Source: an uncultured Pseudomonadota bacterium
GTDB taxonomy: Bacteria > Myxococcota_A > UBA796 > GCA-2862545
NCBI GenBank assembly: GCA_913061235.1
Contig: CAJXTB010000006.1
Span: 1 to 64,000, forward strand
DNA: 64,000 nt
Reading direction: 5' to 3'
The position numbers and the translations under genes are program-made. The notes below the pieces were generated by a model. The model did no database searches, was not told the origin of the DNA, and worked only from the letters and a program-made list of their open reading frames with translations. This document shows, in pieces, positions 38,188 to 49,496 of this stretch. Numbering within the stretch: position 1 is the stretch's first letter; every line of letters begins with the position of its first letter.

Positions 38188-39465
38188 CTACGACGGGTCG
38201 GTGACGCGTCCGATGAACAGGATGGCTCCGGTCAGGTCGTCGCGAATTGCGAAGAGGAACGGATGGTCTGCGTTGATGAAATCCGCAGCGCTCTCGACTC
38301 CAACCACCACGGCCGTGGCTGCGGCTGCCTCTGTGCCGAGCTCGTCTACTGCAACAAAGGCCTTGTGGTAGACGCCGGTAATGTACAGGTTGCCGTCAGA
38401 TGCATCTGCAATGCCCGTGAAATCTGCTGTGCTAGCGTCGAAGGCGCTGGGCATGCCCAAGGCGCGGAGTGGCGTGGACAGCTCAGCTTCGTACTCCAGT
38501 GTGAACTTGGGCATGAACAGGGTGGCGTCGGACGGCTGGAGTGCCTCGAGCCAGCCATCGAAGGTTGCTTGGCTGAGCTCGGCCTCAATGTCGGCCAAGC
38601 CGTCTGTCGCGTCGGGGACAATGAGAATCATGGACAGCTCATTGTCTTGGTACGGAAGCTTGACCACAGCGAGGTCGTCGGTACGACCCGTCTCGATGGT
38701 CGAGTCCGGCATGCCGCCGATGTCCATGTACATCATGGGCACGGTGACTTCGTTGCGTCCGGCCGTTGTGAACGTCCGGTCCACGGTGTCCTCCGGGTTG
38801 AACTGAGTTTCCCAGTCGGCCAAGAAGTAGATGGCGTTTGCCAGAATGAGCCGGGTGTCGCCGGTCACTGAGCCAGCGGGGAGTAGGTCAACGATACGGT
38901 CGTTGGTGTTGTCCTCGACCCAGGCGTTCACGTGCTCGCGTCCGCCTTCGGCGTCACTGATGAAGTCCCAGTCTTCGAGGGGGGCGGCGTAGTCTTGGTC
39001 GCAGACGTCCAAGAAGGGGGTCTCGAAGGGGTAGCCAGTCTGGCCGAAGAGCTGGTTGGCGATTGTCAGGGTGTAGCCACGACCGAGGTCGCCGTTGAGG
39101 TCCTGCATGTACGCGCCCATGGCTTCGTGCCAGGTATCTTCGGAGAGGTCGACGTTGAGCACATCTTCCATCTCGGTCTGCGTGGACCGCTCGGCACCGG
39201 CGTAGGTCATGCTCAGTGCCGCGGTTGTGGAGAAGGGGGAGAAGAAGATGTTGTCGACGTCATCGTCCGCGAGTTCGCCGTACAGATCCCACGCCAGTGT
39301 GTTGTGGCTGTCGACAACGCTGCCAACGTCCCCAGCGGGCGAAACCACGACACGGGCGACGCGATCTACAGCGTCGTCGGTTCCTTCTTGGTCAGTGTCG
39401 ATGCAGTCGCATCCGCAAGCACTAAGCGCAACAATCGGGGACAGGATGAGAGCGAGACGGAACAT
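38188..39465 (-). CDS. Lipoprotein serpin (serine/cysteine protease inhibitor)
   Basis: The product is 425 aa from the ATG at 39463-39465, with GGAGG six bases upstream. Lipobox ALSAC anchors it outside the inner membrane. The rest is a full serpin: NIFFSPFSTTAALSMTYAGA, LANAIYFLADWETQF and the hinge DELGTEAAAAT before a reactive-centre loop. A gap-free reading against alpha-1-antitrypsin puts the bait bond at Glu391-Ser392. Small Ala in the hinge indicates a true inhibitor able to undergo the loop insertion. It probably guards the cell against secreted proteases, its own or foreign. It appears monocistronic. Confidence 0.95.
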   Translation of the reverse strand: MFRLALILSPIVALSACGCDCIDTDQEGTDDAVDRVARVVVSPAGDVGSVVDSHNTLAWDLYGELADDDVDNIFFSPFSTTAALSMTYAGAERSTQTEMEDVLNVDLSEDTWHEAMGAYMQDLNGDLGRGYTLTIANQLFGQTGYPFETPFLDVCDQDYAAPLEDWDFISDAEGGREHVNAWVEDNTNDRIVDLLPAGSVTGDTRLILANAIYFLADWETQFNPEDTVDRTFTTAGRNEVTVPMMYMDIGGMPDSTIETGRTDDLAVVKLPYQDNELSMILIVPDATDGLADIEAELSQATFDGWLEALQPSDATLFMPKFTLEYEAELSTPLRALGMPSAFDASTADFTGIADASDGNLYITGVYHKAFVAVDELGTEAAAATAVVVGVESAADFINADHPFLFAIRDDLTGAILFIGRVTDPS

Positions 39466-39482
39466 GAATACCTCCAGGTGAC

Positions 39483-39512
39483 CCAACTAGTGCAGATGGT
39501 GTGCCAACTAGT
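39483..39512 (-). promoter_or_regulatory. Paired direct repeats upstream of the serpin
   Basis: CCAACTAGT occurs twice (39483-39491 and 39504-39512), 21 bases apart or two helical turns, on the same face of the DNA, just ahead of the serpin ribosome site. This spacing suits a dimeric activator or repressor, or a repeated element in the 5' leader. No promoter boxes were recognised around it. Confidence 0.35.
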
Positions 39513-39598: not shown

Positions 39599-40492
39599 CT
39601 AGTTGCAGAGCGTGCCAGACGTGGAGTCGGACAACTTCAGGGTCGCCGCCGAGCCACCACCAGACGAGTAGGTACCTACCCAGACGTCCCAGGTTCCCGA
39701 GGTGGGGTTCGTCACGCTGACGACGGGGTTGCTGCCTTCTTCGTCGTCGTTGCAGTGCCAGTTGCCGTCACCGTCGTTGATGACGAGGGTGGTGTCGCTG
39801 TCAGCACAAGAGGCGATGCGTAGTGCACTGAGGCCGGACGCGACGTCCAAGCGGTGGGTCGGTGCATCGCCGTTGATGTAGCCCGTGCAGTTCGATGGGA
39901 TGCTGCTGACATTGTCCACGTCCGTGGAACCGCCGGCCGTAACGGACGAGGTCGCGCTGCCAAAGCCGCTGATGAGAGCGGTGTTGCCCGAGCTTGGGGT
40001 GCCAGTCATGTTGACGGTCTCGCTGCCGCCGCCGCTGCCGCCGCAGAACGGTCCGCCGCTCTCGGAGACGTTGATGACAGCGCTGGCCACGGCGTCGTCT
40101 GAGTATCGAGCGACGAAGATTTCGTAGGTGCCGTTCGGGTTGGTCAGGCCAACGACAGGGTTGGTGCCTTCGGTGTCGTCATTGCATTGCCAGGTACCGT
40201 CGGGTCCGCGAACGGCCAAGGCGATGTCTGTGCTTGAACAGGCGCCAATGAACGCTTCGCTCATGTCGGAGAGGGCGACGGTGTAGCTGGCGGTGTTCGG
40301 GTTCATGTAGCCAACGCAGGAGTCTGGCAGCAGTGCGGCAGTCGCGTACACGGTGCCGTCAACGGTGACGGTCGAGGTGACGGGGTCAGGAAGGAAGCCG
40401 CCACTCAACGAGATGTCTGGAACGGCAGTCGAGCCACAAGCGAGGGTGATGGCAAGGAAGGTAGCTGCGGAAGCAACGAGTGTAGTGCGCAT
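39599..40492 (-). CDS. Lipoprotein with a duplicated ~92-residue domain
   Basis: The product is 297 aa with lipobox ITLAC (Cys19). Two copies of one domain follow (C59-C150 and C202-C296), each with a paired Cys at the edges, a CNDD(T/E)EG motif and a TNP-GT(Y/W) turn. Copy 1 has WQCNDDTEGTNPVVGLTNP; copy 2 has WHCNDDEEGSNPVVSVTNP. The pattern is a PPC-like beta sandwich with an acidic turn that may bind calcium. A Gly/Ser-rich spacer (150-157) links them. No catalytic residue is evident. The protein is probably surface-exposed; the function is unknown. Confidence 0.75.
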   Translation of the reverse strand: MRTTLVASAATFLAITLACGSTAVPDISLSGGFLPDPVTSTVTVDGTVYATAALLPDSCVGYMNPNTASYTVALSDMSEAFIGACSSTDIALAVRGPDGTWQCNDDTEGTNPVVGLTNPNGTYEIFVARYSDDAVASAVINVSESGGPFCGGSGGGSETVNMTGTPSSGNTALISGFGSATSSVTAGGSTDVDNVSSIPSNCTGYINGDAPTHRLDVASGLSALRIASCADSDTTLVINDGDGNWHCNDDEEGSNPVVSVTNPTSGTWDVWVGTYSSGGGSAATLKLSDSTSGTLCN

Positions 40493-40637: not shown

Positions 40638-41342
40638 TCAGGCTGCGGAGAAATGTGCCCAAATTGGATAGACGGCACCGAACATCACGCCTACGACCGC
40701 TGCTGCGGCCACGTCACTGAAGTAGTGTCTGTCTGCGCGCACTCGCAGGGCGCCGACGGCACAAAAGGTCAACACCGCGGTCATGGCCGCGGCCCATCCG
40801 CCAGCGCCGCGCACCCACTGTAGATGGATAGCGAAGGTCGCTACTAGGCTCGCGCCGGTTGCCGTCAGGGCTGTGTGGCCTGAGAAGAAGCTGCGCAGGC
40901 GCTCGGGATGTCCGGAAGGGTGTCGCTTGATCTGGCCTTCGCCGTCGAGCACGCGGGTGTAGGGACGCGGCCGGCCGGCAAGGGTGGTCGCAATGCGGTT
41001 GGCGGCACTCGCGGCAAGCAGGGCGAAGGTAGAGATGAGCGCCATCTGGGTGGCGACGTCTGCGTTGCCGTATCGGTGCAACACCAGGCAACACGCGAAC
41101 GGTGCGATTGTAGACGTCCACAAGAGGAAATCGCTGACTCGACCCGATCGGCGTCGTTGGCCAGAGGTTGCGGCGCGTACTCGGGCTCGAATGGCATCGT
41201 CCAACCAAATGGGCTGGTCCCACCGTGCGCGCATGCGCGGATGAATCTCTGAGAACGCCATGAGCATGGCGACGAGAACCCCGACAGCTAGGTACTCAGC
41301 GGTCGAAAAGCGGGGCCATGCGTCACTCCACATGGTGGTCAC
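40638..41342 (-). CDS. PAP2-family membrane phosphatase
   Basis: The product is 234 aa, starting at a GTG that overlaps the upstream stop as GTGA; an ATG three codons in is also possible. Several membrane helices surround the three PAP2 motifs: RIATTLAGRPRP (motif 1), SFFSGHTAL (motif 2, with the active-site His) and RVRADRHYFSD (motif 3, nucleophilic His). These enzymes remove phosphate from lipid or isoprenoid phosphates on the outer face of the inner membrane. It is the last gene of an operon with a nucleotide-type transporter, a barrel and a kinase-like lipoprotein, so a substrate made by that system is possible. Confidence 0.9.
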   Translation of the reverse strand: MTTMWSDAWPRFSTAEYLAVGVLVAMLMAFSEIHPRMRARWDQPIWLDDAIRARVRAATSGQRRRSGRVSDFLLWTSTIAPFACCLVLHRYGNADVATQMALISTFALLAASAANRIATTLAGRPRPYTRVLDGEGQIKRHPSGHPERLRSFFSGHTALTATGASLVATFAIHLQWVRGAGGWAAAMTAVLTFCAVGALRVRADRHYFSDVAAAAVVGVMFGAVYPIWAHFSAA

Positions 41343-43036
41343 AGGCGCGGCGGACGGTCGTCTTTGGGACGCTCAATGCCTGCGAGAACAAGCCCCTGTG
41401 GCGTGTCGTACAGATGCAGGCGCAGTGGCGGACGCGCCTCCTCGGAAGCAGGGTGCGCAATCAGGTCGACCATCAGGTACCGCTCACGCGCGTTGTTTGG
41501 CAGCCCGCGCGAGGGGCGCTGACGATTGCTCATGTCCACGCACAGTCCATTCTCTCCCGAGGCATCCGCCGGACCGCTGAACGCTGGGGTTCGCGAGCCA
41601 GGTAGATAGATGTTGGCGTGGTAGGCGGTGTCTTCGGTCAGTCCGGCTTGGCTGGCGAGGTCCAGAGCGCACACGTTGTTGCCGTCGATCACGGGGTCTA
41701 CCAACGGACTACGCGTGGTCAGGTACTCGTCCACAATCGTGTCCAAGCGTCCGCGCAGAATTGCCTCAATCTCGACGGCGTGTTCGGGATTGGGGAGCTG
41801 TGCGGCGTCTACGATGGCTGAGAGATGGGCGTCTGTGAAGCGACCCATAATGCGGGCCATCCACGCGCCGTCTCCGTCGTCCATCCGCATGAACGCGGAG
41901 TTTGGGTAGCCACCCTTGTATTCGCGGGGGGCGAGCGGGGTGGTGTCGAAGGTGCCCCAAACGGGATGGTCTTCGGTGCTGACGGTGTCCCACTCGCGCT
42001 TGACCAGGCCAAAGGACAGCGTGTCTTCGAGTACGTGGGTGAAGTCAAAGTAGTAGCTATGCCCGAAGCGTCGGGACAGCATCTCGTCCGAGGTTTCCCA
42101 TCGAGAACCAAGGCAATCACCGAAGTCGAGCATGTAGTGGCGGACGTATCCGGCGTCGGAACCGTCTTCGGTAACGAAGGTGGCCAGGGTGTTTTGTTCG
42201 CGCGAGTCAAAGTGGTTGAGCCACACGCTCAGCAGCTTGCTGCCGCGTAGATCTCGCCGGTCTTCATGGCGAATGATGTCGTTGGGGTCGTCTTCGCGCA
42301 GACCTTGGTAGGTCCACGGTCCAATCGGCCGTCCCGACACAAATGCGCTGGCGCTACCGCGGAATTGACCGTCGTCCATGACGTAGGTCTTCTCCAACAC
42401 GCGCTCTACGTCTTCCCACACCAGTGGATGCTCAACGCCCCACGGGTCGTTCCATGTGGCTTCGGGGTCCACGCTGAGCCGTGACCGGTCGAAGGTCACC
42501 ACTTGGTTGCACGGAGCGTAGTAGCCAGCCGCCCAGTACAGCTTGCTGCCGATGACGTCAGACGCGGTGGCTCGCGGGCCCTGGTCTAGGCCGTCGAACT
42601 TCATCAGGTACTTGCGACCATCTTCGGTCTCGATCTGAAAACCAGGGTTCAGACCATTCGGTTTGGCGCCTGTCACAATCCAGCCGATAGATGGGTCGTC
42701 GAGCATGTTCTCAGCGGTACACGGTCCCATGGCCATCTCTTCGGGGCTGACCGAGCGCACACCCAGGCGGTTGGTGAACCACGATGAGTTCGGGACCTCG
42801 TCCCAGGCGTTGATGTTCGCAGCGGGCTCACCGACTTGTACGGACAGGCCGCGTTCGATGGGTAGGAAGAACATCTGGTCGGCACCGTCCCAGATGAGGC
42901 CGGACCAGTACTCTTCCGGTCGCTCGGGAATGGGCTGGCGGTCGGTGTCTTCCCACATCGGCGAGGCGAGGGGGTAGGGCAGGGTCTTGGGAGCACATGC
43001 CGCGAGTGACAGCGTTGTGAGGAGGAGGGTGCGCAT
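41339..43036 (-). CDS. Lipoprotein with kinase-like fold motifs
   Basis: The product is 565 aa with lipobox SLAAC (Cys14). A conserved-looking core reads like the HipA/PI4K/CotH group of atypical kinases. TGAKPNGLNPGF (122-133) leads to a lysine strand RKYLMKFDG (K146). A catalytic-loop-like stretch LNHFDSREQNTL follows (D277, N282), then a metal-binding HYMLDFGDCLGS (D304 in DFG). I recognise the pattern from unnamed bacterial proteins rather than from a characterised enzyme. It would act outside the cytoplasm on an unknown substrate. It overlaps the barrel gene upstream (TGATG) and PAP2 downstream (GTGA). Kinase activity is inference; the protein could be a pseudokinase. Confidence 0.7.
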   Translation of the reverse strand: MRTLLLTTLSLAACAPKTLPYPLASPMWEDTDRQPIPERPEEYWSGLIWDGADQMFFLPIERGLSVQVGEPAANINAWDEVPNSSWFTNRLGVRSVSPEEMAMGPCTAENMLDDPSIGWIVTGAKPNGLNPGFQIETEDGRKYLMKFDGLDQGPRATASDVIGSKLYWAAGYYAPCNQVVTFDRSRLSVDPEATWNDPWGVEHPLVWEDVERVLEKTYVMDDGQFRGSASAFVSGRPIGPWTYQGLREDDPNDIIRHEDRRDLRGSKLLSVWLNHFDSREQNTLATFVTEDGSDAGYVRHYMLDFGDCLGSRWETSDEMLSRRFGHSYYFDFTHVLEDTLSFGLVKREWDTVSTEDHPVWGTFDTTPLAPREYKGGYPNSAFMRMDDGDGAWMARIMGRFTDAHLSAIVDAAQLPNPEHAVEIEAILRGRLDTIVDEYLTTRSPLVDPVIDGNNVCALDLASQAGLTEDTAYHANIYLPGSRTPAFSGPADASGENGLCVDMSNRQRPSRGLPNNARERYLMVDLIAHPASEEARPPLRLHLYDTPQGLVLAGIERPKDDRPPRL

Positions 43037-44418
43037 CAGTTCAACCCCGTTGTGCCAAAGGTGAACTGGAGATTTTCGAAGGAGATGCCATCACCAAAAC
43101 GCGATGTGCCGAAGCCGATGTTGGCGTGAAACGGCACCTCTCGGTCGATCGCTGAAAAGCCAATACCGAAAGAGCCACGCATGTTGTCTAGGCCAAGGTC
43201 TTGGAAGTTGGGCCCGTACACGCCGCCAAACTCAGCGAAGAGATTGGCATCGAACATCACCCAGACTGGCCATGAGTACTCAAAGGTGGTCAGTGCCGCG
43301 CTCTCACCGCGCAAGGACTCGCGGAGGAACCCGCGGTGTCGCTCGACGCCGCCAAGGGTGTGAAGCTCTGTGAAGGCGATGGTCTTGTTGTCGGAGAAGC
43401 CAACAATACTGCCGAGCCACTGGCGAACCTTCAGGGTGCGTTGTGTGCCGGACACGTCCATGAACGCCGAAGCCCCAGCGCTGAGCCGGAGGAAGGAGTC
43501 GGTCTGTCCGCTCACATCCGTTCCTAGTGTCGCGGCAAAGTCACCGGCTAGGCCCGTTCCGGCTTCTGGACGGGCGAGGCGGGAATCGGCGGTGCCCTCG
43601 AGGGTGAGGTCGAGCAATCCGTAGCCCTCTGTAAAGCCCGACAGTCGGTCTGGACGGTACAAGGTGGCGATACTTGGGTCATCAATCACGCCGTCTTGGC
43701 CGACGTCGAAGTCATTTCGCTGGAATCCAATACTTGTGCGAATATGGTCGTACAATCCGGTGTATGCGTCGACGCCTGCTCGGACTCCAAGGCGGCTTCG
43801 CGAGTACCGTGATTCTTCGACGCTGCGGACGTTGCCCAAGCCGGCGAACACTTCGTCTGGGCGTCGGAGGTACTGGGCCTCCAAGACGACCGCGCTCTGG
43901 TCGCGCTCAAGCGGCGTGCCGATATCTTGGCGCCAGCTGCCCCCGAAGGCCACCCAGTTGGGACCGCCGTAGGCACCCGCGACACGGAAGCTACTCTTGC
44001 CCTCGGGACCAATGTCAGAGCCGATGAGTGCAGCGCCGACCGACGCGCGAAATCCGAAGCTGATGAGGGCCGTTGGCAGGAACAAGGCATGCCCACCATC
44101 GGGGTCTCCGATAGTCAACGCGCGTTCCACCTTCTTGGCCACGCCTTCCCTCTCCACGAACTTTATGGTGTGGGCGACGGGCGGGTAGATGACGAACTTT
44201 TCGACGGCGTACAGGGGGGCCAACGCCACGCGTGGAACCCACAACAGACTCTCACCCAGGCTCGGGGGTGCCGTGGCCCGACCGTCGTAGTTGGGCCGCT
44301 CGCGCTCGGACAGCTGCGGGGTTGCGAGTGGGGGCGGGACCTCTTGGGCAGCCGGGCCCCAAGCACGCTCGGCCTCTTGGCCAGACGCCAGAGCAATGAG
44401 TAGGACGAGGGCGGTCAT
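43036..44418 (-). CDS. Omp85-type outer-membrane barrel without POTRA domains
   Basis: The product is 460 aa with a signal peptide ending near ASGQ. A Pro-rich 40-residue stretch and an amphipathic region (to about 105) precede a barrel made of alternating strands (about 115-460). The L6-loop sequence GGVERHRGFLRESLRG followed by FEYSWPVWVMFDANLFAEFG matches the surface-antigen/BamA barrel domain. There are no POTRA repeats, so it is unlike TamA at 15514. It could be a small secretion or lipid-passage pore. It is placed between the transporter (ATGA overlap) and the kinase-like lipoprotein (TGATG overlap). Confidence 0.82.
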   Translation of the reverse strand: MTALVLLIALASGQEAERAWGPAAQEVPPPLATPQLSERERPNYDGRATAPPSLGESLLWVPRVALAPLYAVEKFVIYPPVAHTIKFVEREGVAKKVERALTIGDPDGGHALFLPTALISFGFRASVGAALIGSDIGPEGKSSFRVAGAYGGPNWVAFGGSWRQDIGTPLERDQSAVVLEAQYLRRPDEVFAGLGNVRSVEESRYSRSRLGVRAGVDAYTGLYDHIRTSIGFQRNDFDVGQDGVIDDPSIATLYRPDRLSGFTEGYGLLDLTLEGTADSRLARPEAGTGLAGDFAATLGTDVSGQTDSFLRLSAGASAFMDVSGTQRTLKVRQWLGSIVGFSDNKTIAFTELHTLGGVERHRGFLRESLRGESAALTTFEYSWPVWVMFDANLFAEFGGVYGPNFQDLGLDNMRGSFGIGFSAIDREVPFHANIGFGTSRFGDGISFENLQFTFGTTGLN

Positions 44419-45866
44419 GCAGCGGTCTCCTCTGACGGCATCTGGGCAGCCAACGCCTTGTAGCGTCGAACAACCAATACGGACACTGCAAGCCAGGCAA
44501 CGATAACGATAAGGTTCACTATGCCGAACCCACGATTGCCGAGCATCAGCCAGTTGGCACCGACGAAGACGATGCCGGCGCTGAGCACGTCTCCTAGGCG
44601 GACAAAGAAGGTGTCTACCGCTTGTTTGGCCTTGTACTTCTCGTTTCGGTCAGTGGGTAGCCACAGCATGCTCTTGGCGCTGTTCATCACCGAATAGTCG
44701 GTGCTGTTCTCAGCGGTCTTCAGCCAGCGAAGCACCATGAACCCAACGCCGGCGGCGGCTCCAGCGTAGACGCCGAATGCCACGATGGGCAGCATGAAGA
44801 CAAGGGGAGTAATGCCGAACCACTTGACCAAGCGGGACACGAACAGCGCTTGGAACAGGACTGCAAGAACGTTGACCCAGAAGAAGAAGTTGCCGTAGAA
44901 GGCACCGATCCACTTGCCTTTCCGCTTGTCGAAGATTTCCTCGCGGGTAGGCACCTCCTCACCCTCTGCCACGGCGAGGGTCTCGGCAAAGACCTCCCCA
45001 GCCGCTTCTTGGGCGTCCATCTGTAGGGTGATGGTCTCGCCGGCGGTCTCGACGACCACGCTGCCCAGCATGTACTCGCCAGTCGTATTCACAATGTTGA
45101 GCAGGATGAGCAAGATGGCGATGAGTCGGATGTATGGACGGGTCAGCACCAATAGGAACCCGTTGGGGCCCTCCAGAGGCTTCGGCGGTGGGCCCTGAGC
45201 GGACCATGTGGCGTTGGCCACCACGGTTAGAGCAAGGTGTGTGACGAGTAGTCCGGCCGCTACCTGCATGAGCGCGTACGGGCCTAGGCCGTCACCTAGA
45301 AAGCCAATTTCATAGCCCCAGATCTTCCCTTTGAAGAGCACAGAGGCAATGAAGCTGCCGGCAGCGGCTCCCCCCGTCATGCCGATTCCGACAATCGGGA
45401 ACAGACGCTCGCCTTGGTCCTTGTTGTACAGATCATTCGCCAGTGACCAGAACTGAGCAATCGTGGCAACGCTGAAAATGCCAACCCAAATGTAGTAGAC
45501 GACACCCAACCAGCTCGGCTCCGCAGAGACGCCGAGTAAGTAAAACCCCTGGAGGCAGGCGGTGAATGCGATCAGCGTGCCAGCGATGAGCTTTGGCCGG
45601 TCTACACGATTGGCCAGGTACCCGTAGGCCGGCACGAACAACATCAGCACACCGGCCTGGGCGGCGGCAGCGTAGGACTTCGGTTCGGCAGAACCACCCG
45701 CGAGAATGAGCGGTTCACGGACCGTCTTGAGGATGTAGTAGCTCACCATCAGCAAGAACAAGGACATCAGCATCAGCAACGCGTGCGAACCTTCGCCTGC
45801 CCGAACATCGGAAAAAATGCCGAGAGCGTAGTCAATGGGTGACTTTTTCTTGGTTGGTTCAGGCAT
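44415..45866 (-). CDS. Tlc/NTT-like nucleotide exchange transporter family protein
   Basis: The product is 483 aa with about 12 membrane helices. The N-terminus (VRAGEGSHALLMLMSLFL, then SYYILKTVREPLIL) and the late motif TDYSVMNSAKSMLWLPTDR with EKYKAKQAVDTFFVRLGD are those of the ATP:ADP antiporter (Tlc/Npt) family within the MFS. In intracellular parasites members import ATP. In free-living bacteria the substrates are mostly untested. A charged loop (about 275-315) is larger than in many relatives. It is the first gene of the four-gene operon. Its family suggests movement of nucleotides or phosphate compounds across the inner membrane, but direction and substrate are unknown. Confidence 0.85.
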   Translation of the reverse strand: MPEPTKKKSPIDYALGIFSDVRAGEGSHALLMLMSLFLLMVSYYILKTVREPLILAGGSAEPKSYAAAAQAGVLMLFVPAYGYLANRVDRPKLIAGTLIAFTACLQGFYLLGVSAEPSWLGVVYYIWVGIFSVATIAQFWSLANDLYNKDQGERLFPIVGIGMTGGAAAGSFIASVLFKGKIWGYEIGFLGDGLGPYALMQVAAGLLVTHLALTVVANATWSAQGPPPKPLEGPNGFLLVLTRPYIRLIAILLILLNIVNTTGEYMLGSVVVETAGETITLQMDAQEAAGEVFAETLAVAEGEEVPTREEIFDKRKGKWIGAFYGNFFFWVNVLAVLFQALFVSRLVKWFGITPLVFMLPIVAFGVYAGAAAGVGFMVLRWLKTAENSTDYSVMNSAKSMLWLPTDRNEKYKAKQAVDTFFVRLGDVLSAGIVFVGANWLMLGNRGFGIVNLIVIVAWLAVSVLVVRRYKALAAQMPSEETAA

Positions 45867-46040: not shown

Positions 46041-49000
46041 TCAGTCCGACGGCGGTGGGATGGTGCGAACGGCGGTGCGAGCCAGCGCAGGCCAGCGTTC
46101 TTTGAGGAAGGTACGCCCTTCTTGTAGCGGCAGACTGCCGGCGATGCTGCGCGCGAGGGACATCCCTGTACGCAGATGACGGGCGCGGTCGCTCTCGTCT
46201 GTGCACACTTGAACGAGCTCGTGGTGACAGCAGAGCTGGAAGAAGCGGTATCCGTGGGTTTGAGCGATTCCGAGCGCCTTGTTGAGCCCTTCCTGCGCAC
46301 TTGGAATGTCTCCGAGTGCAGCGTACGCTTGTCCCCGGGCAAGCTCCGCTCGGACCTGTAGGTGTGGCCACTGACGAACTCGGTCTTCTTCCTTCTCCAG
46401 CAACTCTCTGGCTTCTGCGCTGCGGCCCAGCAGCGCCAAGGCATGGGCACGCCACGCTTCGGCCTGGGGCGTGATGCCTTCGGAGTCATGCTGTGCCAGC
46501 ATTGGCCACAGGCGGTCGAGAATGCGCAGTGCGTGGGCTGGACGGTTGTCTGCCAAGGCAATGCGAGCTCGCAAGGCAAGGGCAGTCACCTCGTCTTCGG
46601 ATTGACCCAGCTTGCGGACCAACCGGAGAGCTTCGGTGGCGTTCTGCTCGGCTTCGCGAGTGCGGCCCAGCTCGAGCAAGACGTTGGTTCGGTACACCAA
46701 GCCCAAGGCAATACCGTGTGGATGGTCGACTTCGCGCGCTTGGGCCACGGTGAGCTCCGACAGTCCCAGTGCCTTGCTCAAGATACCGCTCGATAGATAC
46801 AGTTCGACGAGGTTCACTCGAGCGATAGCCAGCGCGTCTAGCATTCCTAGCTCGCCGAACAGGGAGGCGGACTGTTCGAGGTGGCTTCGGGCTTGTGCTG
46901 TGGCGCCCTCGCAGACCGCTAGGATTCCCAGGCCGTTGTAGCCAAAGCCCAATGCTCGGTCGTCACCGGCCGCTTGTGCGCTGGAGACCACGTCATTCCA
47001 CATCTGCTCGGCACCTGCGAGGTCGCCTTTGGCCCAGACCAACGCGCCCAGGTGATACAGCGGCATGGGGCGTAGGGACTCTTCACCGGCTTCGTCTGCA
47101 CGGCTTAGAGCGCGCCGTAGTGCGGCTTCAGCCTGTTCATTCTGCCCTTGATTGCGCAGTTGGTTGCCGTACTCGGCGTAGACGCGCGCTTGCAGAGCAG
47201 GGTTCGGGACCACGTCTGCCAGGGCTCTCGCGCGCTCGGCGGAGACCAGTGCTCCCTTCCAATTACCAAGGTGAAACCGTGTTAGCGAGCGAGCCAAGTG
47301 GAGTTCGGACAAGGTGGCGTCTGCGTGGTCGAGCAGCATCAAGGGGCGAGCAGTGGGCTCGAGCTTGAGTGCTCGGTCAATGAACACCATCGCTTCTTCG
47401 TGCAAGCTTCGTCTCAAGTGACGTCGCGCTGTCTGCATCAGGAAAGCGTAGGCCTTGGGTGCGAGACCTGCCTGTTCGAATTGGTAGGCCAGTTCCTCGA
47501 CAATGACCGCGGGCTGCTCACGGTACTGGCGCTCTAGCACCTCGCCTAGGCGCTGATGTTGCGTCTGGCGCATCTCTGGAGACATTCTCTCGAGAAGTAC
47601 GTCCCGAACTCGGCCCTGAGCGAGCTCGTACGACTCTTCTTCACCGTCGCGTCGTTCTTCCACCAAGCCGGCTTCTTCGAGAACGTCGATAGCGTCGAGC
47701 ACGCTGTCTTCGTCGAGACTGAGTGTGCCCAGGAGTGCGTCGACATCTAGGCGACGCCTGGAGATGGCGAGGGTCTGGGCAACACGTTCGGCGTCGGTGG
47801 GTAGGTGTCGTAGACGTTCCCGAATCGCGTCTCGCAGCGACGTTGGAATCGGTAGGCGCGACCGTGTAATCTCAGTAGGATCGAGGGTAATGCGCCACTT
47901 ACCGTCTTCCTTGACCAGCACATGTTCGTCGACCAAGCCGCGCATCATGTCGGCAATGAACGCGGGACTTCCGCCCGACTCCAAGTGCAGACGCTTGGCG
48001 AGGGTTCGTGTCCGCATGTCATTGGGCAGCATGGCGAGCAGCAGCTCTTCCACTTCAGAGCTTCCCAATGCGCCGATCTCGACGGGAATGACAGCGTCGA
48101 TATCTTCGAGACGACGCTCGGAGGTCGCGGTGTCTGTGTCGTGGCCCAACAGGAACACGACCTGCTCACTCTGCAGCTCCAAGGTGTTGCGAATTAGGTA
48201 CTCGAGAAGCTCGCCAGTCGCGGGGTCGGCGTTCTCAAGGTCGTCGAGAACGATGACCACGGGTGCTCTGGACACCACCAAGTCTCGAAACGCCCGGATG
48301 ACGGGGTAGCGTTCGCGCACAACGCCGTCGTCTACGCTGCCGAGGACCTGCTCGAGGACGGCGGGCTTGTCGTCTCCGACGAGTGCTCGGTAAACACCGA
48401 TAAACGCACCGAACGGCCTGTCTTGCTTGCGGCATCTACCGCGTGCCACCACCAGACCGAGGCGGCGGGCATGTTTGACAGACTGTTCGAGCAGACGCGA
48501 CTTGCCCATGCCCGTTGCGCCCTTGAGCAGCAGGGCGTTGCCAATTCCGTTCTGGCTGAGGTCGTCGACGGAGTCTCGTAGTCGCGCGGACTGCAAGGTG
48601 CGGCCCACTGTCTTGGGGGGCCAAGCCTCTTCGGTGTCGGTGTGTTGGGGGTCACCGAGGATGTGCAGCAGGTGAGCGCTTGAGGCGAAGCGCGCGGCTG
48701 GGTCTTTTGCGAGCAGGCGCATGCAGATGCGGTCGAGGTGCGGCGGTACCAACGGCTCGACTTCTCGCGGCGGGCGTGGCATCTCGTTGAGGTGCTTCTC
48801 GAGGTAGCCGTGCAGGTTGCGCGCGGTGAACGGGCGTTGACCCGTGAGGACCAAGTACAGCACTGCCCCGAGCGAGTACAGGTCCGCGCGGGCGTCGACG
48901 GCCTCGCCTTTGATCTGTTCGGGGCTGATGTAGGCGACGGTGCCAATCATCTCGCCGTGGCGAGTGAGGTCTGCACCCAAGTCTTTGACCACACCAAAGT

Positions 49001-49496
49001 CCATGAGCTTCGTGTTGCCTTCGCTGTCGACCATGATGTTCGACGGGGTCACGTCTCGGTGTACGAGGCCTCGGTCGTGGGCGTATGCGAGTGCGCGAGT
49101 CACCTGGATGAGCATGTTGTTGGCTTTTTCGAAGCGCACTTTGGGCGATTCGGTGCGCCACACTTCTGTGGCTTCCTTCAACACCATGCCGTCGAGTAGC
49201 TCCATGGTGAACCATGGTCGATGCTGATGCACACCCCACTCGAACACCCTGAGAATGTTCGGATGAGACAGGCGGGACAGGGCACGGAATTCTCGTCGAA
49301 AACGAGTCTGCGCCTCGGCCACGTCGTCCAATGGCAACAGCAGCTTCATGGCGCGCGTGGAGTCGTCACGGACGTCGCGCACCGCGATGACGCTCGCCAT
49401 GCCTCCTCGTGCAACACGATGGAGAACTTCGTATTCGCCGATGCGGTCTCCGGTGGACACGCCGCCAGCGCTGTTTGGAACCTCGTTCAATGGCAT
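46041..49496 (-). CDS. Ser/Thr kinase fused to AAA ATPase and TPR (1151 aa)
   Basis: The kinase domain (about 20-282) has K51 (AMKLLL), HRDVTPSN (D148, with the usual catalytic-loop Lys replaced by Thr, as is common in myxobacterial kinases), DFG (166-168) and SPEQ. The Gly loop reads ARGGMAS, with Ala for the first Gly. The NTPase has Walker A GATGMGKS (326-333) and Walker B VVIVLDDLEN. Long TPR-type helices fill the last 550 residues. It is cytoplasmic, with no membrane helix. It diverges from a PP2C phosphatase gene across 120 bases, so kinase and phosphatase may be controlled together. Confidence 0.93.
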   Translation of the reverse strand: MPLNEVPNSAGGVSTGDRIGEYEVLHRVARGGMASVIAVRDVRDDSTRAMKLLLPLDDVAEAQTRFRREFRALSRLSHPNILRVFEWGVHQHRPWFTMELLDGMVLKEATEVWRTESPKVRFEKANNMLIQVTRALAYAHDRGLVHRDVTPSNIMVDSEGNTKLMDFGVVKDLGADLTRHGEMIGTVAYISPEQIKGEAVDARADLYSLGAVLYLVLTGQRPFTARNLHGYLEKHLNEMPRPPREVEPLVPPHLDRICMRLLAKDPAARFASSAHLLHILGDPQHTDTEEAWPPKTVGRTLQSARLRDSVDDLSQNGIGNALLLKGATGMGKSRLLEQSVKHARRLGLVVARGRCRKQDRPFGAFIGVYRALVGDDKPAVLEQVLGSVDDGVVRERYPVIRAFRDLVVSRAPVVIVLDDLENADPATGELLEYLIRNTLELQSEQVVFLLGHDTDTATSERRLEDIDAVIPVEIGALGSSEVEELLLAMLPNDMRTRTLAKRLHLESGGSPAFIADMMRGLVDEHVLVKEDGKWRITLDPTEITRSRLPIPTSLRDAIRERLRHLPTDAERVAQTLAISRRRLDVDALLGTLSLDEDSVLDAIDVLEEAGLVEERRDGEEESYELAQGRVRDVLLERMSPEMRQTQHQRLGEVLERQYREQPAVIVEELAYQFEQAGLAPKAYAFLMQTARRHLRRSLHEEAMVFIDRALKLEPTARPLMLLDHADATLSELHLARSLTRFHLGNWKGALVSAERARALADVVPNPALQARVYAEYGNQLRNQGQNEQAEAALRRALSRADEAGEESLRPMPLYHLGALVWAKGDLAGAEQMWNDVVSSAQAAGDDRALGFGYNGLGILAVCEGATAQARSHLEQSASLFGELGMLDALAIARVNLVELYLSSGILSKALGLSELTVAQAREVDHPHGIALGLVYRTNVLLELGRTREAEQNATEALRLVRKLGQSEDEVTALALRARIALADNRPAHALRILDRLWPMLAQHDSEGITPQAEAWRAHALALLGRSAEARELLEKEEDRVRQWPHLQVRAELARGQAYAALGDIPSAQEGLNKALGIAQTHGYRFFQLCCHHELVQVCTDESDRARHLRTGMSLARSIAGSLPLQEGRTFLKERWPALARTAVRTIPPPSD

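Follow-up and report, generated by a model that had tools for sequence, protein, structure and literature searches.

The operon analysed here lies at positions 40638-45866 of the window, a stretch of 64,000 nucleotides (positions 1 to 64,000 of contig CAJXTB010000006.1, assembly GCA_913061235.1) from an uncultured myxococcotal bacterium with a genome of 7.18 Mb. It encodes a transporter of the NTT (ATP/ADP-exchanger) family, an outer-membrane-type barrel, a kinase-fold lipoprotein (KIN) and a phosphatase. We found that among related genomes the transporter is almost confined to those whose KIN retains the catalytic residues. This suggests that in some bacteria the envelope is phosphorylated with exported ATP. 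On balance, we consider it fairly probable that the operon products form a system for phosphorylating the envelope, fed by NTT-exported ATP. The four genes are as follows.

45866-44415 (-): gene 1, short NTT/TLC-family transporter, 483 amino acids, without a HEAT domain
44418-43036 (-): gene 2, Omp85-type barrel, 460 amino acids
43036-41339 (-): gene 3, KIN, the kinase-fold lipoprotein, 565 amino acids
41342-40638 (-): gene 4, PAP2-superfamily phosphatase, 234 amino acids, GTG start

In gene order they overlap by 4, 1 and 4 bases (ATGA, TGATG and GTGA). These minus-strand overlaps had been reported in a preliminary description of this DNA, made from its letters without database searches, and we found them just as described. 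The families it gave for genes 1, 2 and 4 were confirmed by Pfam, with matches to TLC (PF03219; E = 5e-9, 35.9 bits, cutoff 21), Omp85 (PF01103; E = 1e-10, 41.9 bits, cutoff 24) and PAP2 (E = 7e-14), respectively. A gap of 174 bases separates the operon from the nearest upstream gene, which encodes a protein kinase-AAA-TPR protein (46041-49496), and 145 bases separate it from the next gene downstream.

Transporter presence depends on KIN catalytic integrity

We compared 108 genomes of family f15, in which a short NTT was called at E < 1e-20. It was found in 52 of the 55 genomes with an intact KIN, in none of the 16 with only divergent KIN and in one of the 37 without KIN (Fisher test, p = 6e-26). 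The association also held at close range: in nine genera with varying KIN status, 37 of 39 genomes were concordant (within-genus permutation p = 1.5e-5). Intact and divergent copies were separated by E-value and then checked on the sequences of fetched f15 copies, where all intact ones carried the Lys/Asp/Asn/Asp (K/D/N/D) catalytic set and no divergent one carried it in full. Divergent copies keep D250, D253, R260, R261 and H300, and all but one also keep H257. The adjacent barrel was retained in nearly all of the fetched divergent loci. Since these loci keep the barrel and not the NTT, presence of the NTT goes with the ATP-using residues, and that of the barrel with the KIN protein itself. 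In the 29 genomes that had both KIN and NTT on one contig, the distance between them was always less than 4 kb.

The degenerate KIN clade comprises loci L068-L072, L105-L115, L117-L120, L123 and L124. At a further locus, L116 (G358:C2), KIN is a pseudogene disrupted by in-frame stops; this genome has no short NTT.

A survey of 284 genomes of the phylum was used to examine the neighbourhood. KIN relatives were detected in 28 genomes and the barrel family in 25, almost the same set, while NTTs of all kinds were present in 125. In about 37 of 42 loci the barrel gene lay next to KIN, mostly upstream and on the same strand. NTT genes lay near KIN in 17 of the 42, on either side, and gene orders varied (NTT-OMP-KIN, OMP-KIN-NTT and divergent forms, OMP being the barrel). 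Counts rest on trimmed profiles and raw single-sequence E-values. Adjacency was taken from profile coordinates, because many barrels and several KIN genes had escaped the composition-based gene caller. The exact order NTT-OMP-KIN-PAP2 was found in the window and at L050, L129 and L131, in three other genomes. The four-gene arrangement that the preliminary description singled out is therefore conserved elsewhere, with a near-universal pairing of barrel and KIN and three further instances of the complete order. A chance origin of the operon is excluded, because the same neighbourhood recurs across many genera. Other conserved neighbours within 9 kb of KIN belonged mainly to one cluster that is also seen in the window's protein-kinase genes.

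Some loci show other gene combinations. At L042, L044, L045, L048 and L053, NTT-HEAT genes stand beside KIN together with a cyclic-nucleotide-binding-like protein of about 320 amino acids, and these pairs resemble the NTT-HEAT-cNBD pairing described previously (PMC5381601). L074, L076 and L077 each have, upstream of a short NTT, a gene for a membrane protein in which one domain resembles dual-specificity phosphatases (recognised by eye); these three genomes have KIN elsewhere. In the window itself, a secreted two-repeat PPC-like protein (39599-40492, minus strand) is encoded downstream of the operon. Beyond it lies the gene for a bacterial serpin with a lipoprotein-like N-terminus (38188-39486, minus strand; Pfam E = 6e-106).

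Properties of the operon proteins

Sequence searches with KIN returned no match in Pfam or NCBIfam and none of meaning in the PDB, where only chance repeat-like matches were seen and the kinase core alone gave none. An AlphaFold2 model calculated from 42 sequences (mean pLDDT 93.1, pTM 0.94) has a two-lobed kinase fold. Its best Foldseek match in the PDB was Fam20A (E = 9e-4), and VIA-align gave Z scores of 14.4 to CtkA, 14.4 to Fam20C, 13.3 to PI4KII, 12.8 to CotH and about 11 to HipA, over matches spanning about 210-260 residues. Judged by this model, KIN belongs with the kinase-fold proteins related to Fam20, HipA, CotH and PI4K. At the level of sequence profiles it falls outside the corresponding Pfam families: PF06702 (Fam20C) matched neither KIN, nor the 42 members, nor anything across the whole genome G000; the CotH family matched none of the 42; and HipA_2 matched three of them weakly (best E = 0.04). 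KIN would thus define a kinase family for which neither Pfam nor NCBIfam has a model.

Comparison of 40 KIN loci, taken with their flanks, and the structural model located the following features.

42995-43006 (-): lipobox LAAC, KIN residues 11-14; the Cys is present in 39 of 40 aligned members
42638-42664 (-): glycine-rich nucleotide loop KPNGLNPGF, residues 125-133, from the alignment; family form KPNGxNPGF
42599-42601 (-): codon of K146, the VAIK-type lysine, from the alignment
42245-42292 (-): DDPND...H..RR..R motif, residues 249-264, in active and in catalytically degenerate members
42191-42217 (-): catalytic loop NHFDSREQN with D277 and N282; family form NHFDxREQN
42116-42130 (-): metal-binding LDFGD with D304 (DFG position), from the alignment
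41393-41719 (-): C-terminal fibronectin-III-like beta sandwich, mature residues 427-535; VIA Z of about 8 to FN3 domains

K125, G128 and G132 are invariant in the 36 aligned non-degenerate members, and the stretch DDPNDxxxHxxRRxLR and H300 are invariant among KIN relatives. K146, D277, N282 and D304, whose roles were assigned from alignment and motif and not by residue superposition, are present in the window KIN and in almost all copies read outside the degenerate clade. Individual exceptions are L059, without K146, L067, without N282, and L002, where an NTT stands beside a KIN without D304. The residue after the lipobox Cys is Ala in the window KIN and is Asp in no aligned relative; by the E. 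coli +2 rule, the absence of Asp suggests an outer-membrane location. The preliminary description had seen kinase-like motifs and a lipobox in the third gene. Both were borne out, the motifs being conserved in intact relatives and LAAC in nearly all members, and the modelled structure proved to be related to kinase folds of the Fam20, CtkA, CotH and HipA type.

The AlphaFold2 model of the barrel (pLDDT 86) has about 16 strands and aligns with the barrels of BamA, TamA and Sam50 at VIA Z scores of 23-24. Its N-terminus consists of a signal region, a conserved RxxPDYDGR-like segment and helices at 54-104. No POTRA-like alpha/beta domain was present in the model, in which a low-confidence segment and these helices precede the barrel. 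The window PAP2 protein carries the SGH and RX5HX3D motifs; the Lys of KX6RP is missing from it and, according to a motif scan, present in most PAP2 neighbours of the relatives.

A profile built from 31 relatives of the short NTT matched the solved ADP,ATP carriers 9j3n (E = 6e-20 over 428 positions) and 9j3j (E = 8e-17), and we propose from these sequence matches that the window NTT is an inner-membrane ATP/ADP exchanger. NTTs are known from free-living bacteria, where NTT-HEAT and NTT-HEAT-cNBD fusions have been described; the functions of the fusions are unassigned, and little of the diversity of NTTs has been characterised (PMC5381601).

A second partner of the transporter

In lineages without KIN, a different gene follows or faces that of the short NTT. 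Its product combines PPDK_N and PEP-utiliser domains, arranged much as in GWD. One example is L083:3573-6506 (plus strand), and others are at L082, L086, L103 and L145-L157. Full-length or long orthologues of this dikinase-like protein were found in 17 of the 284 genomes. Sixteen of these have a short NTT (the exception is G149), on the same contig in 11, and none has KIN. All 17 proteins begin with a signal-peptide-like segment, as judged by a hydrophobicity check and not by SignalP. A short NTT was present in 45 genomes; of these, 20 have an intact KIN and 16 the dikinase, and no genome has both. In the NTT tree, the dikinase-linked transporters form a single clade nested among the KIN-linked ones, suggesting a switch of partner. 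KIN and the dikinase are unrelated protein types that likely have only ATP as a common co-substrate.

Other secreted kinases were surveyed with PF06702, and no clear correlation between these Fam20C-family proteins and the NTT was seen. Members with lipoprotein or signal sequences do exist in Myxococcota (L073:14138-15238 on the minus strand, L170, L171 and L175), and in G028 a Fam20C homologue is separated from a short NTT by about 5 kb, while others occur in genomes that lack a short NTT.

Interpretation and relation to known systems

According to the proposed mechanism, the inner-membrane NTT would exchange cytoplasmic ATP for ADP, so that ATP reaches the periplasm. KIN, probably located at the outer membrane alongside its Omp85-type barrel partner, would phosphorylate a substrate in the envelope or at the surface, and the ADP formed would return through the NTT. 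The PAP2 phosphatases of some loci may remove or recycle phosphate, a role that we put forward only weakly. That a co-transcribed transporter might supply an envelope kinase had already been suggested in the preliminary description; the modelled fold, the neighbourhood and the catalysis-dependent co-occurrence support it as a proposal.

Several observations weigh against it. An intact KIN occurs without a detectable short NTT in G112, G322 and G328, and PAP2 genes lie near KIN in a minority of loci only. Secreted Fam20C-like proteins are found in G052, G057 and G047, which gave no NTT match, so an NTT is not needed by every predicted envelope kinase. E245 and K527, two of four residues critical in AtNTT1, appear as Gly and Asp in this NTT subfamily, so that its substrate may differ from ATP/ADP. 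Finally, the co-occurrence of KIN and NTT is partly a matter of joint inheritance: the genomes compared are related, many are fragmented metagenome-assembled genomes, and adjacent genes can drop out together. These concerns are reduced, though not removed, by the within-genus test and by near-complete genomes that have neither gene (such as G090 and G033).

We weighed this proposal against other explanations. KIN might use the supplied ATP for something other than phosphotransfer, adding AMP or glutamate (cf. SelO and SidJ) or assembling the barrel. Kinase-fold enzymes with other chemistry exist, the barrel is the near-constant partner of KIN, and degenerate copies are retained together with it. 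We nevertheless regard this as unlikely, since the Lys, Asp, Asn and Asp of KIN are placed as in canonical kinases, and the solved structures nearest to it in fold (CtkA, Fam20C, CotH and PI4KII) are phosphotransferases.

Nucleotide scavenging is another unlikely explanation, in which barrel and NTT would import nucleotides from lysed prey or from environmental DNA or ATP, with PAP2 and KIN processing phosphate outside. ATP would then be an imported nutrient, as it is for intracellular parasites. Myxococcota include predators and the barrel could serve as a pore; moreover, characterised NTTs import nucleotides (PMC5381601). On this explanation, however, the NTT should track the barrel, yet the degenerate-KIN loci have the barrel without a short NTT, and relatives of the NTT pair with the signal-peptide-bearing dikinase where there is no such barrel.

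It is rather improbable, too, that the NTT carries a different solute (another nucleotide, NAD, S-adenosylmethionine or a sugar nucleotide) and that its link to active KIN comes from a pathway common to both, for instance one that modifies envelope glycans. The departures from AtNTT1 at these positions would fit such a change, and NAD (for Npt1) and S-adenosylmethionine are cited as substrates of other family members (PMC5381601). Against this stands the exchange of partners between a kinase fold and a PPDK_N dikinase, for which the common co-substrate is ATP. That the genes form a coincidental or selfish cluster, transferred together and functionally uncoupled, is very improbable: KIN is patchy (3 of 71 genomes of the window's own class), but the association persists while gene order and orientation vary, and where the catalytic residues have been lost the NTT is lost too, but not the barrel.

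The proposed system would act in a compartment, the periplasm, that is usually regarded as ATP-free, and it predicts a phosphorylated envelope layer in Myxococcota. The evidence seems to us evenly poised on a wider idea, that NTT exchangers of free-living bacteria are periplasmic ATP-supply modules, one subfamily of which is paired by lineage with alternative envelope phosphotransferases, either the new barrel-associated lipoprotein kinase family or a secreted PPDK/GWD-like dikinase. If true, this would give bacteria a general equivalent of the eukaryotic secretory-pathway kinases, which are likewise supplied with ATP. No role has been assigned to the NTTs of free-living bacteria (PMC5381601), and the operon offers a concrete, testable one. 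The preliminary description knew of no account of such a system, and our searches of the open-licence literature for kinases of the envelope or periplasm that work with a nucleotide transporter likewise found no precedent. Each component comes from a known superfamily; the whole is, as far as we found, undescribed.

The transporter, the barrel and the dikinase can be set beside known relatives. By Pfam and by the profile match to solved carriers, the window NTT belongs to the family of chlamydial Npt1 and plastid NTT1; characterised members import ATP, in parasites and plastids, whereas the direction proposed here is export. The barrel shares its 16 strands with BamA, TamA and Sam50 but differs in having no POTRA domain, a short helical N-terminus and a dedicated lipoprotein-kinase partner. 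Glucan water dikinase, PPDK and PEP synthase have the PPDK_N and PEP-utiliser domains in common with the alternative partner of the NTT. As far as is known, these enzymes are cytoplasmic or plastidial, while the 17 NTT-linked proteins carry signal-like N-termini and track an NTT.

For KIN itself, HipA, HipA_2 and CtkA share the fold and the D-x4-N catalytic loop, but KIN, unlike them, has a lipoprotein signal, an envelope operon and no HipB-like partner. CotH of the Bacillus spore coat, also a bacterial kinase, has a fold similar to that of KIN and likewise stands apart from the usual cytoplasmic kinases; it works in spore coats, and no dedicated ATP carrier is known for it. Fam20C, the Golgi casein kinase, resembles the predicted KIN structure in its secreted, atypical Fam20-class fold, and the compartment where it works depends on ATP import. 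KIN differs from it in being a bacterial lipoprotein with an FN3-like C-terminal domain, a DDPND-H-RR motif and a barrel partner.

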